From Fodinibius saliphilus (lineage in GTDB: Bacteria; Bacteroidota; Rhodothermia; Balneolales; Balneolaceae): a DNA stretch of 64,000 bases. Shown here piece after piece: positions 11,421-26,714 of the stretch. The stretch is taken from contig NZ_VAWF01000001.1 in NCBI RefSeq assembly GCF_005869845.1, positions 372,001 to 436,000 on the forward strand. The letters are read 5' to 3'. Both the position numbers and the translations under genes were made by a program. Numbering within the stretch: the stretch's first letter is position 1; each line of letters begins with the position of its first letter. The notes beneath the pieces were generated by a model, which made no database searches, was not told the DNA's origin, and was given only the letters and a program-made list of their open reading frames with translations.

Positions 11421-11940
11421 ACTAAAACCAGTTTGAAAAGATTTAGAATTTTTAACCTACTTGGTTTCCATTACGCACCAATTCAGAAATTTGTTACGAA
11501 AAAAAATAAGTTTAAGGGTGGCTTGGTATTGAAAGAAGGAGAGAAATGAAGCGGGAAAAGCTAACAATATGGCTTATAAAAGGTTTTAAGGGTGATTATT
11601 TGGTTTTTAACTCCATCCCCTGAATCAGGATAGAAACATAAATAGATTAATCTACTTTTTTAGTTCTGGTATAGAAGGGAAAGGAATTTATCGTTTATAA
11701 TTTTCAACAGCTAGGCAAGATTTTTACCCAGATGCCCCAGGAGGGGGGCAACAGTTATAACTAATCCCAAAATCAAAATAATATATCTCTATTCATCACT
11801 TAAAATCTTAATTATTTTACTAAATAGTATGAACCCTTACTAATTCTGGAATAGAAATTTGAGTATTTCTTTGTTGGCTTATGACTCAGAATACCGTTAT
11901 TATTATGAATCTTATAATTTTAATGTACTGATTCAATAAA
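11421..11940. other. Divergent gene-free region between pump operon and B12 riboswitch
   Basis: About 520 bases without a credible ORF. It must hold the minus-strand promoter of the efflux operon and the plus-strand promoter of the riboswitch-controlled operon. A TATAAT at 11913-11918 could be the -10 of the latter, but no matching -35 was seen. A GC-rich hairpin (TGCCCC 11733-11738 with GGGGCA 11745-11750) has no T tract and is unexplained. Confidence 0.4.
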
Positions 11941-12126
11941 GGTCTGCATTGTGATCAATGTAGTTAAAATGGGAATTCGGTGATCAACCTATTGTCTTGG
12001 TTGAAAGTCCGGAGCAGTCCCCGCTGCTGTAAGCTCCATGAACTTTGTGATGCTGAAATCCACTATCTGTCTGCGGCAGATGGGAAGGTTATCATAAAAG
12101 AGGAGTAAGCCAGAAGACCTGCCCGT
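11941..12126 (+). promoter_or_regulatory. Cobalamin (adenosylcobalamin-type) riboswitch controlling btuFCD
   Basis: The conserved aptamer blocks appear in order: GGGAATTCGGTG (11971), AAGTCCGGAGCAG (12005), the P5 hairpin with loop TCCCCG (12018-12023), GCTGTAAGC, then GATGGGAAGG (12080) and the B12 box AGCCAGAAGACCTGCC (12108-12123). It ends 44 bases before the start codon of a periplasmic binding protein gene. In this RNA class, bound cobalamin represses expression of uptake genes. Recognition is from the conserved blocks; the ligand form (adenosyl- or hydroxo-/methyl-) is not decided. Confidence 0.95.
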
Positions 12127-12142
12127 ATTGATGACGGAAAAA

Positions 12143-15456: not shown

Positions 15457-15550
15457 AAACCCTAGCTAATATTTTAAAATTATAATGGGTAATACGTTTT
15501 TATTTTCTCATTAAAGCTTATACCTTTAAGCGCTCTTTGAAATAGTGATT

Positions 15551-15727
15551 CGGTTCCCCATTAATACTGGGGTGAAAAGGGAATTTCGTGCACGAGCATA
15601 TCGCTTGGAAATCGAAAGCTGTACCCGCAACTGTAATTCCGTATAACACTGTCGCATATCTTTGTGCCACTATTAGCCATTTGGCAAATGGGAAGGCCCG
15701 ACAGTTGGAAAAGCCAGGAGACCTGCC
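15551..15727 (+). promoter_or_regulatory. Second cobalamin riboswitch, controlling btuB and the BtuG-like gene
   Basis: Aptamer blocks in order: a P2-like element GGTTCCCCATTAATACTGGGG, AAGGGAATTTCGTG (15578), GGAAATCGAAAGCTG, an L5 containing CCCG (15624-15627), CAACTGTAA, then AAATGGGAAGG (15686) and the B12 box AGCCAGGAGACCTGCC (15712-15727). It lies upstream of a TonB-dependent receptor, the classical btuB target. A short open frame that crosses it (15588-15806) is fortuitous. Together with the first riboswitch it would shut down both outer- and inner-membrane B12 uptake when cobalamin is plentiful. Confidence 0.95.
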
Positions 15728-15744
15728 AATCTATTCTATTTCGA

Positions 15745-21345: not shown

Positions 21346-21896
21346 TTCGACACACGACACCGGATATCGAAGAAGGCATTTGTTACGGGCAAAAAGATAT
21401 TGGTTTAGCCGTTGATTATGCAAATGAAGTAAATATTCTAAAGAGAAAGCTTCCAAAGGGCTACCATAATTTTACTACTTATAGCAGTTCTCTTGAACGG
21501 TGTAAAAAATTAGCTGACGAACTAGCTACGAAAGAGCCTATCACAGATGATCGCCTGATGGAACTCAATTTTGGGGATTGGGAAGGTCGGAAATGGGATA
21601 ATATAAGCCAGAATGAACTGGGTGAATGGATGGAAAACTTTGTTGAGGTCGTATGCCCCGGTGGAGAATCGTATCGGCAGTTACATAACCGGGTAGAAGC
21701 ATGGTGGAAGGAGCAATTAGAGGGGAAAGACGATCAGTTGCTTGTGATAACGCATGGAGGGGTTATTCGCTGTCTCCTAAGTTTGGTGTTAGGTATTCCA
21801 TTGGGAAATAGTTTTCAACTGACCATAGATTACGGAGGCGTTTCTAAAATATCTCGTCGTCATAATAGAAACTCAGTAAGATTTATCAACAGATGA
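21330..21896 (+). CDS. cobC: Alpha-ribazole phosphatase, histidine phosphatase family (CobC)
   Basis: The 188-residue enzyme has the histidine-phosphatase core: LIRHTTP with the phospho-acceptor His8, the acid block LMELNFGDWEG, and the second His in VITHGGVIRC. It removes phosphate from alpha-ribazole phosphate or cobalamin phosphate. It starts inside the last 16 bases of cobS and ends overlapping the next gene (ATGA). Other histidine phosphatases look alike; the operon position supports CobC. Confidence 0.9.
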   Translation: MDIYLIRHTTPDIEEGICYGQKDIGLAVDYANEVNILKRKLPKGYHNFTTYSSSLERCKKLADELATKEPITDDRLMELNFGDWEGRKWDNISQNELGEWMENFVEVVCPGGESYRQLHNRVEAWWKEQLEGKDDQLLVITHGGVIRCLLSLVLGIPLGNSFQLTIDYGGVSKISRRHNRNSVRFINR

Positions 21897-22636
21897 AAAG
21901 AGCATTGTTCAATTGGAGCGGAGGAAAAGACTCCTCCTTTGCTTTACATCGTGTACTGCAGGATGGTAACTATGAAATTGCGGGATTGCTTACGAGTTTC
22001 AATAAGGCTAATAAAAGAGTGTCTATGCACGGCATTCATCAAAAGCTGGTTGAAGAACAAGCTCGGCAAATCGGCCTGCCGTTATATCCACTGATGCTAC
22101 CGCAGGATTTAGGGATGGACAAGTATAATGCATATATGGAGCAAAAACTCTTGAGTTATAAAAAGAACGGGATCAATGTCGGAGTTTTTGGGGATATCTT
22201 TTTGGAAGACCTCAAAAATTATCGAGAGAAACAGCTTAAAAGTATTGGAATGGAAGCACATTTCCCGTTATGGAAAAAATCAACTGCAGAGCTATCACAA
22301 AAGTTCATTGACGATGGATTCAAAGCAATTGTCGTGTCTGTCAGCGGAGAGAAATTAGACAAGTCTTTTGTAGGGCGGATTTATGATGAGTCTTTTATCG
22401 GGGCGTTGCCAATAGGAGTCGATCCCTGTGGAGAAAATGGAGAATTTCATACCTTTGTTTTTGATGGCCCTATCTTTAAAGATGCTGTGCCTTTTACGAT
22501 AGGGGAGACCATAAAACGATCTTATGAACTACCTAATGATGATGACTCTCACTGTTTTCAGGATGATGCTGCTCCGCCTGATGAATGCATTTACTGGTTC
22601 ATGGATTTACAAGTGCCGGAAAAGAAGACACATTAA
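21893..22636 (+). CDS. PP-loop ATPase, Dph6/COG2102-like, in the cob operon
   Basis: The 247-residue protein begins with a PP-loop, NWSGGKDSS (7-15), which binds ATP in adenylating enzymes. It continues with the Dph6-type blocks VSMHGIHQKLVEEQA, GVFGDIFLEDLKNYRE and DPCGENGEFHTFVFDGP. In archaea and eukaryotes such proteins amidate diphthine on EF-2, but bacteria lack diphthamide, so this one must do something else. It overlaps cobC by four bases (ATGA) and is the last gene of the operon. I infer a corrinoid-related ATP-dependent step, such as amidation or adenylation, but no direct sign of substrate is visible. Confidence 0.8.
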   Translation: MKRALFNWSGGKDSSFALHRVLQDGNYEIAGLLTSFNKANKRVSMHGIHQKLVEEQARQIGLPLYPLMLPQDLGMDKYNAYMEQKLLSYKKNGINVGVFGDIFLEDLKNYREKQLKSIGMEAHFPLWKKSTAELSQKFIDDGFKAIVVSVSGEKLDKSFVGRIYDESFIGALPIGVDPCGENGEFHTFVFDGPIFKDAVPFTIGETIKRSYELPNDDDSHCFQDDAAPPDECIYWFMDLQVPEKKTH

Positions 22637-23129
22637 TAGAATAGAAGCTATTAATCATTCAAAAGGCTAGTAGTAGAGTCTTCTTCAACAATGGAGTAAA
22701 AGATCTTTTTACCCTTATATTACTAGTAGTAGATAACTTATTTAATGCTTGAGTGATGAGGAGTTCTGTATTTTCTAGCACAGACCACTATTTTGATGAA
22801 AAGCTCGTTTTTATACAAATATTAAAAAATATTAATATTAATAAACGAACTTGATCCAATTAGCAGGGTATGAGGTGGGTTTTTTTATAGTTCTTAAAAA
22901 GTTATCCACAGGATGTGGATTTCTTATGACAAAATTGAGATAAAAATAGTCCGGGTTACTAAATGTATTGTGGATAACTTTAACCTTTTGTGGAAAAGTA
23001 ATTAGCTAATTTACTTGCTCCAAAAAGCTAGTCCTTTATATTTAACTGATGGAGAGTGGCGATTTTTTTTAGTGCATTTAAAGCCTTCCATACTAGTCAA
23101 AATAATTTGTAAGTAACCGGAGAATATTT
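22637..23129. other. 493-base gene-free region with AT-rich tract and DnaA boxes before nrdJ
   Basis: There is no plausible ORF. Contents from left to right: a weak inverted repeat at the end of the preceding gene (TTAATAG 22633-22639, CTATTAA 22648-22654); an exact 11-bp direct repeat CTAGTAGTAGA (22667-22677 and 22723-22733); an almost pure A/T tract (22811-22845) with repeated AATATTA; and three DnaA boxes (22902-22997). The nrdJ ribosome site is CCGGAGAA, just before 23130. It may be a regulated nrdJ promoter or a replication-origin-like element. Confidence 0.6.
22902..22997. promoter_or_regulatory. Cluster of three DnaA boxes
   Basis: A perfect TTATCCACA lies on the plus strand at 22902-22910. 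A second perfect box lies on the minus strand at 22969-22977 (reads TGTGGATAA on plus). TTTTCCACA, which fits TTWTNCACA, is on the minus strand at 22989-22997. ATCCACA (22904-22910) also forms a perfect 7-bp inverted repeat with TGTGGAT (22914-22920). They sit 133-228 bases before nrdJ. Confidence 0.7.
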
Positions 23130-26100
23130 ATGAAATTTACACGCTTTTATACTCAGGAAGAGTGGGATAGCCCTTTTGGAGATATGAAGTTTGAGAGTCG
23201 TAAATCGGAGATCAAAAATCCCGACGGCTCAATGGTCTTTTCAATGGACGAATTAATTGTACCGGCTTCTTGGTCGCAGGTGTCAACAGATGTTATTGCC
23301 CAGAAGTATTTTAGAAAAGCCGGTGTTCCTAAGAAAACGAAAAAAGTCAAAGAAAAAGGAGTGCCTAAATGGCTTCAGCGTTCTGAGGCGGATGAAGAGG
23401 CAATGAAAGATATTGATGAAGAGGAACGATATGGCGGAGAGTTTGACAGTCGCCAGGTGTTTCATCGATTGGCTGGTTGCTGGACCTACTGGGGATGGAA
23501 GCATGATTATTTCGATTCAGAAGAACAGGCTAAAGTATTTTATGATGAGCTTTGCTATATGCTGGCAAACCAGATGGCAGCTCCAAATAGTCCACAATGG
23601 TTTAATACTGGCTTGCACTGGGCTTATGGTATCAATGGCCCGTCACAAGGTCATTACTATGTTGATGGAAAAACCGGCGAACTGACACGGTCTGATGATG
23701 CCTATTCCCACCCACAACCTCACGCCTGCTTTATCCAAAGTATTGATGATAACCTTGTGAACGAAGGCGGTATCATGGACTTGTGGGTTCGTGAAGCTCG
23801 TTTGTTCAAATATGGTTCGGGTACAGGCAGTAACTTTTCAAAAGTACGTGGTGAAGGAGAGCCCCTGAGTGGAGGTGGTCGTTCTTCCGGTTTGATGAGT
23901 TTCCTTAAGATTGGTGATAAAGCAGCAGGAGCTATTAAATCCGGCGGTACCACCAGACGTGCTGCGAAGATGGTGACGCTTGATCTTGATCATCCTGATA
24001 TTGAAGAGTATGTGAATTGGAAGGTCCGGGAAGAGCAGAAGGTTGCTTCTATGGTTGCGGGCTCGAAAATTTTGGAAAGTCATCTCAAAAAGATAATTAA
24101 ACTCTGTAACAAACCGGTTGAAATTGACGGTCGTACCTTTAACGGCGCGGTAAGTCGGGATCCGGTGAAAAACAAAGAGCTTGGGAAAGCGATTAAAGAA
24201 GCCAAAGAAGATCAGGTACCATTAAATTATATCGAAAGAGTAGTTCAACTGGCGGCACAAGGCTTTACTGATCTGGAATTCGATACTTATGATACGGATT
24301 GGGATTCTGAAGCTTATCGTACGGTAAGTGGACAGAATTCAAATAACTCTGTCCGTATTCCCAACAAATTTATGAAAGCCGTAAAGGATGATGACCAGTG
24401 GGATCTCTACTGGAGAACGGAAAAACGTAAGGCGGCCGAAGAAGGGCGAGAGCCAGATCCGTGCAAGTCAATGCCGGCCCGTAAGCTTTGGGATGATATT
24501 GCGCATGCTGCTTGGTCTTGTGCCGATCCCGGTGCTCAGTATCACGATACCATTAATGAGTGGCACACATGTCCTAACGATGGGCCAATTAACGGTAGTA
24601 ATCCTTGTTCGGAGTACATGTTCCTCGACAATACGGCTTGTAACCTGGCGTCGTTGAACCTGATGAAGTATTTCAAAACGGACGAATGCAACGAGTTTGA
24701 TGTAGAGGCGCTTCGAAACGCTTCGCGTCTGTGGACGGTAGTTCTTGAAATCTCCGTATTGATGGCACAATTTCCATCCAAAGAGATTGCAGAGCTTTCT
24801 TACAAGTATCGTACGCTGGGTCTTGGTTTTGCGAACCTTGGTGCTGCATTGATGGTTCAAGGTGTTCCTTACGACAGTGATGAAGGTTGTGCTATTGCCG
24901 GTGGATTGATGAGCATCATCCACATGAATGCTTATAAAACAAGTGCCGAAATGGCGAAAGAGCTTGGTGCTTTTGAGCGTTTCGAAGCCAATAAGGAACC
25001 AATGCTGAAAGTTGTGCGAAACCACAAACGTGCGGCTTATAATGTGGATCCTGATGAATATGAGGATCTCACGGTAAAGCCAATGGGTATTGATGCTAAT
25101 GAATGCCCGGATAATCTCTTAAAGGCAGCCCGTGAAGATTCTGACGAAGCAGTAAAAATGGGTGAAGAGCACGGTTATCGAAATGCCCAGGTAACGGTAA
25201 TTGCCCCAACGGGTACCATCGGCTTGGTCATGGATTGTGATACAACCGGAATTGAGCCCGATTTCGCACTGGTGAAGTTTAAGAAACTTGCAGGTGGTGG
25301 TCACTTCAAAATTATTAACCAATGTGTACCTAAAGCACTGCAAAACCTAGGCTATAGTCCTAAAGAGCGACAAGAAATAATTAACTATGCTAAAGGTCAT
25401 GGTACATTGGATGGTTGTCCTCATATTAATGAGGAAACACTCCGCGAGAAAGGGTTTGGTGACAAGCAGCTGGATGCCATTGAAGAGGCATTGCCCAGCA
25501 GTTTCGAAATCAAGTTTGCTTTCAACCAGTGGACACTGGGAGAAGACTTCTGCAAAGAAGAGCTTGGCCTAACTGACGAGCAACTTGCCAATCCTCAGTT
25601 TGATATTCTCAAGTTTCTTGGATTTAGCAAAGAGCAAGTTCAGGAAGCTAACGATTATGTATGCGGTACTATGACCGTAGAGGGAGCACCTCATCTAAAA
25701 GATGAGCACCTGCCGGTCTTTGACTGTGCCAATCGATGTGGACGTATCGGAACCCGTTATATTGCACCGGGCGGACACATCCGCATGATGGCAGCAGCAC
25801 AGCCGTTTGTTTCCGGAGCTATTTCGAAAACAATCAACTTGCCCAACGAAGCAACGGTTGAAGACTTTAAAGATGCCTATATGGAATCTTGGGAGCTAAT
25901 GCTGAAGGCTAATGCCTTGTATCGTGATGGATCTAAGTTGAGTCAACCACTTAATAGTCTAAGTGATGTTTTCGAAGACTTGGATGAAGAGGACCTCGAT
26001 GAGGAGATTACTCAAGCTCAGGATAAGGTGGTTGAAACTGCTGAAAAGATTGTTCACAAATATGTGGCCGATCGTCAGCGTTTACCCAGCCGTCGCAATG

Positions 26101-26714
26101 GTTATACCCAGAAAGTGAAGATCGGCGGACAAAGTGTCTATTTACGAACCGGCGAATATAAAAATGGCCAACTCGGTGAGATCTTCATTGACATGCACCG
26201 TGAAGGTGCTGCTTTCCGAAGTCTCACAAACTGTTTTGCAATCGCTATTTCACTTGGGTTGCAGCATGGTGTACCGCTTGAAGAGTTTGTGGATGCCTTT
26301 ACATTCACAAAGTTTGAGCCCAGTGGTACGGTTAGTGGAAGTCCGCATGTTAAGATGACGACTTCCGTTATCGATTATATTTTCCGTGAACTTGCGGTAA
26401 CATATCTCGGTCGTGATGATCTGGCACACGTTCCTGCAGAGGATATTATGTCGCGTAAGATGCGACCTTCTGAAGAAGCGAAACAAGCAAAGAAGGCAGA
26501 TCAGGCCCAGACGGGTACCGCTGATGCGGTTGCAGAGCCAGAACCTGCTACCCAATCTGCAGATAGTGATGATGGTTATCAGAGTGATTACGAGAAAGCA
26601 AAAGAACTGGGATACACCGGTGATTCCTGCCCCGAATGTGGTAGTATGACGATGGTCCGCAATGGAACCTGTCAGAAGTGCATAACTTGTGGCTCAACTA
26701 CCGGTTGCTCGTAA
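23130..26714 (+). CDS. nrdJ: Class II vitamin B12-dependent ribonucleotide reductase (NrdJ)
   Basis: This 1194-residue enzyme uses adenosylcobalamin to make the thiyl radical that reduces ribonucleotides to deoxyribonucleotides, with or without oxygen. The active-site finger-loop motif NPCSE (Asn491, Cys493, Glu495) is present. Further core blocks are [35 protein letters not shown] and [17 protein letters not shown]. The C-terminal tail has paired cysteines ([21 protein letters not shown]), the usual redox or zinc-ribbon tail of the long NrdJ form. The length is normal and no intein is seen. Its placement right after the B12 salvage operon fits its cofactor need. DnaA boxes upstream suggest cell-cycle control. 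Confidence 0.97.

Follow-up and report, generated by a model that had tools for sequence, protein, structure and literature searches.

The window (the whole 64,000-nt stretch analysed here) contains nrdJ, which encodes a class II adenosylcobalamin-dependent ribonucleotide reductase, downstream of a run of cobalamin-linked genes. The gap between nrdJ and the last gene of this run, which ends at position 22636, holds three DnaA-box-like 9-mers. Two perfect copies of TTATCCACA and one copy of TTTTCCACA are confined to 96 bp and stand 133-228 bp upstream of the gene; an earlier note on this DNA had described these boxes, together with the shared direction of the flanking genes, an A/T stretch, and an 11-bp direct repeat, and all of these were found in the sequence. 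The window also carries two cobalamin riboswitches (11923-12140 and 15534-15744), on the same strand as the B12-related genes downstream of them. The features of the locus are as follows:

21893-22636, + strand: last gene of the upstream cobalamin-linked run, 247 aa, codirectional with nrdJ
22667-22677 and 22723-22733, no strand assigned: two copies of the 11-bp repeat CTAGTAGTAGA
about 22817-22845, no strand assigned: A/T-only stretch
22902-22910, + strand: DnaA box A, TTATCCACA, facing boxes B and C and starting 67 bp from the start of box B
22969-22977, - strand: DnaA box B, TTATCCACA, part of the core module and kept through the family
22989-22997, - strand: DnaA box C, TTTTCCACA, at a distance of exactly 20 bp from box B, roughly two helical turns
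22969-22997, + strand: core module TGTGGATAA-N11-TGTGGAAAA, 29 bp
23014-23020, + strand: conserved putative -35-like element CTTGCTC, 16 bp (15 bp in some relatives) past the TTTGTGGAAAA of box C
23037-23042, + strand: conserved putative -10-like element TATATT, with a 16-bp spacer from TTGCTC
23130-26714, + strand: nrdJ, 1194 aa (PF08471, PF02867)

The number of boxes in the 64 kb was ordinary, with 3 observed and 2.35 expected from shuffling. None of 15,800 windows of 250 bp, drawn from 800 kb of the same genome, held two or more matches to TTWTCCACA. The 3.6-Mb assembly contains 47 perfect copies of TTATCCACA, and at least two of them fall within 200 bp at only three places: a candidate oriC on contig C2, the dnaA promoter, and nrdJ. 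The near-consensus boxes before nrdJ are clustered beyond chance. The genome encodes a single DnaA with all three domains present, including the box-binding domain.

The closest named relatives of this genome are Balneolaceae, and it is accordingly assigned to that family. Conservation of the boxes was assessed at nrdJ loci within and beyond the order, with boxes sought within 400 bp of the gene. At least two boxes were present upstream of nrdJ at 35 of 36 loci of the order, compared with 3 of 76 outside it. The single exception within the order, G033, had one box by the strict rule. One of the three outside loci (L093), from a Nitrospinaceae bin, carried the same two boxes 21 bp apart, 198 and 177 bp before nrdJ.

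Within the genus, the distance from box B to box C was 20 bp in all 12 members, and their starts lie 158-169 bp (box B) and 138-149 bp (box C) upstream of the start codon. Column identity was 97% in box B and 100% in box C, falling to 58% in the 9 bp between them and 35% in the DNA just upstream, showing that the boxes are conserved beyond the neighbouring DNA at the same gene. Box A faced the B and C pair from 67 bp upstream of box B in 9 of the 12 members, the distance in the others being 65, 68, and 98 bp; in G010 it reads TTATCAACA. The 98-bp distance belongs to G005 (locus L009), where an apparent 31-bp duplication lies between boxes A and B; as this adds nearly three helical turns, the helical phasing would be preserved.

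Other members of the family retained boxes B and C, with the third box at a different place. In the other families of the order, the boxes become TTATCAACA, TTATTCACA, or TTTTCAACA, and they stand either in a register of 10-11 bp or as inverted pairs 50-72 bp apart. Spacings of tandem boxes across the loci were limited to 10-11 or 19-21 bp, and the variants among relatives (TTATCCACA, TTATCAACA, and TTATTCACA) vary as DnaA boxes do.

Of 92 family genomes, 75 contain the core module formed by boxes B and C (61 of 66 among those of high quality), and the reversed control pattern gave no matches. Among 30 copies checked, 29 lay upstream of nrdJ in the right orientation; an extra copy in G094, which had no promoter context, was set aside. 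In the aligned loci of family f1, box C is followed by TTTnCTTG (or TTTG) and then by TATATT, at nearly constant distances of 15-16 and 38-39 bp from TTTGTGGAAAA, so that the boxes hold a fixed position relative to this predicted promoter motif. A generic sigma-70 promoter scan did not list the CTTGC...TATATT pair. From the position of the motif, the nrdJ transcript would be expected to start near 23049. A search of IMG/VR returned 32 matches to the bare 29-bp pattern, none in a CTTG...TATATT context, and these were taken as chance or unrelated.

Taken as a whole, the region before nrdJ is best read as an nrdJ control region recognised by DnaA (probability about 0.8), namely a putative DnaA-controlled promoter analogous to that of E. 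coli nrdAB and serving a class II enzyme. Promoter control of nrdJ was also the reading preferred in the earlier note, and it survives because the boxes are kept before the gene throughout the order. DnaA would occupy boxes B and C, which form a direct, helically phased pair immediately before the nrdJ promoter and, in the genus, would also bind box A about 67 bp further up, which may permit a second, facing DnaA array. Outside the genus box A is not conserved at this place, which leaves its function less secure than that of the B and C pair. DnaA bound at B and C, upstream of the -35 element, would help RNA polymerase, and the level or nucleotide state of DnaA would set nrdJ transcription and so match dNTP supply to replication. 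As the boxes lie upstream of the -35 element without overlapping it, activation at low or moderate DnaA is the most likely sign; at high ATP-DnaA, nrdJ may perhaps be repressed, as is E. coli nrdAB. That DnaA is the binding protein, where the promoter starts transcription, whether control is positive or negative, and how it ties to the cell cycle are all inferred here.

Another transcription factor could read the same 9-mers. In the aligned family loci box C is invariably TTTTCCACA, and because this sequence is both fixed and off the strict consensus, the binder or its affinity may differ from the canonical case. However, the only clusters of the same 9-mer are those at the three places named above, and the variants in other families stay near the degeneracy of DnaA boxes, which makes a factor other than DnaA unlikely. 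Somewhat less probable still is a site that titrates DnaA or exchanges its nucleotide and merely lies beside nrdJ. Sites of the datA and DARS types exist in E. coli, and direct and inverted boxes lie within about 100 bp here. Against this, the module keeps a fixed distance from the promoter motif and tracks nrdJ in nearly all genomes examined, the remaining region is unconserved, and the spacings of 67 and 20 bp appear wider than those of the DARS core.

The earlier note had also raised the possibility that the cluster is the chromosomal replication origin or part of it, given three boxes next to an A/T-rich stretch. GC skew, sampled from stretches along the contigs, was positive along C1 to about 720 kb, on both sides of the nrdJ cluster and across the window, and negative throughout C4. 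It changed sign at C2:388.5 kb, from -0.084 on the left to +0.045 on the right in two 8.5-kb halves. This switch coincides with a larger and denser cluster at C2:388361-388717, with four perfect boxes and several one-mismatch boxes, flanked by divergent genes: a DinB-family gene running leftward and, running rightward, a gene for a product that resembles D-aminoacyl-tRNA deacylase. The relative G005 has three of these boxes at identical spacings of 51 and 160 bp. On these sequence features, the chromosomal origin most likely lies at C2:388 kb, detached from dnaA, and a skew switch on C1 between 720 and 800 kb marks a candidate terminus. The third multi-box place, C4:35463-35732, lies just before dnaA and has three perfect boxes, all on one strand, and is likely to serve autoregulation.

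Neither the A/T stretch nor the repeat near the nrdJ cluster is conserved. CTAGTAGTAGA was absent from all other upstream regions among 30 scanned, including that of the closest relative, whose NrdJ is 97% identical and with which the A/T tract is only partly common; both elements are therefore probably incidental. The role as DnaA-trios that had been proposed for the TAG repeats beside the A/T tract is thus unsupported, and no conserved A/T-rich unwinding element was found at the cluster. With the skew switch and the larger box cluster both on C2, the origin reading of the nrdJ cluster fails and is highly improbable.

Equally improbable is that the 13-nt inverted repeat (AAAGTTATCCACA...TGTGGATAACTTT) acts as an RNA or DNA hairpin and not as protein sites: the strand is able to fold (z -2.0), but the repeat lies upstream of the predicted transcript, one arm is broken in relatives (TTATCAACA in G010), some relatives lack box A altogether yet keep B and C, and no compensatory changes preserving the pairing were seen. 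As the gap had no Rfam match and the arms are unconserved, a hairpin or riboswitch reading was rejected. A separate short inverted repeat at 22904-22920, ATCCACAGGATGTGGAT, consists of box A and a degenerate facing half-box; it was seen in G004 and was missing from the other relatives aligned.

Control of a reductase gene by DnaA is best known from one E. coli class I operon. There, nrdAB is both activated and repressed, depending on the level and nucleotide state of DnaA (PMC8203912), and this source cites Tuggle and Fuchs 1986, Augustin 1994, and Olliver 2010 for the DnaA boxes at the promoter. As at nrdJ, the boxes stand at a reductase promoter, and there are three of them, not all alike. 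The nrdJ case differs in that the enzyme is class II and B12-dependent instead of class Ia, the box layout is different, NrdR is undetected, the boxes are conserved across the order, and DnaA binding is predicted. A DnaA-regulated nrdAB has also been proposed in Caulobacter crescentus (PMC8203912), which is alike in linking DnaA to a reductase, although the gene is class I and the phylum another. Double DnaA boxes with 2-3 bp gaps are described in E. coli (PMC11317965); families f4 and f5 of the order are similar, with direct boxes 11 bp apart (a 2-bp gap), whereas the family of the window uses a 20-bp register (an 11-bp gap).

The arrangement of paired sites upstream of the gene, separated by helical turns, also recalls control by NrdR through NrdR boxes (PMC4009431, PMC12051234). 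NrdR is nearly universal in bacteria according to a 2014 review (PMC4009431), but a profile search (TIGR00244) did not find it in this genome, and the NrdR box bears no relation to the motif seen here; with no nrdR gene detected, the NrdR-box reading was rejected. Across 38 genomes of the order, the search gave only five hits, all below the cut-off, four of which lie in nrdA-sized frames and are probably ATP-cones. The DnaA circuit seems to take the place of NrdR, for which the order yields no detectable gene.

The genome also has a class I nrdBA (L190), preceded by a cobalamin riboswitch (L190:360-550; G000:C1 at about 1626860). Because of this riboswitch, B12 would be expected to turn nrdBA off and leave nrdJ as the main enzyme, so that the choice between the two reductases is probably set by B12. 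In G005, G009, and G010, the NrdJ-homology search returned nrdJ alone, and the boxes were kept.

Extra copies of the module or of its promoter form were found in sister genomes at four loci: G004:C16:77500 (L194), G004:C32:359 (L193), G007:C1:169071 (L192), and G002:C1:1297812 (L239). Downstream of each copy come a leader with hairpins and a tiny ORF of 33-56 aa, joined in at least three cases by a terminator-like hairpin. In G004:C16 the copy immediately precedes PycTM and PycC (Pycsar), and in G007 it immediately precedes genes for MazG_C, ThsB-TIR, Nmad2, and SLATT proteins; a Pfam search of the genes beside the G002 and G004:C32 copies gave no defence family. G002 and G007 have tiny ORFs that look similar. 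The leaders of G002 and G004:C16 share GGAACTTAGGTGCCC and a distal GCACCT, a motif that may form a pseudoknot.

The leaders of the extra copies had no Rfam match. A search for GGAACTTAGGTGCCC across the order gave two hits, both of them copies already known, and three hits in viral contigs, of which two or more fall within coding sequence, were judged unrelated. Relatives of the 56-aa leader ORF of L194 (...KPFKGVRKEK) occur on 61 plasmid records spanning several phyla; the one on a Phocaeicola vulgatus plasmid sits amid TIR, SIR2, RloB, and retron HNH genes. We regard the extra promoter copies near antiphage-type genes, at four loci, as a lead and not a result. A tentative and rather doubtful scenario is that the order lost or never had NrdR and made DnaA the dedicated regulator of its main reductase, and that the promoter was copied in sister genomes before short transcripts with tiny ORFs, two of them directly upstream of antiphage-type genes, making defence loci responsive to replication state.

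Given the deeply conserved DnaA boxes before nrdJ, replication control is probably coupled to the supply of DNA precursors in this order. The putative DnaA control of nrdJ extends across the order and concerns a class II enzyme, in genomes where NrdR was not detected. It suggests that coupling of dNTP supply to the replication initiator is an alternative general solution to reductase control, and gives it a precise site. Reuse of the promoter near defence genes, if true, would link phage defence to replication control.
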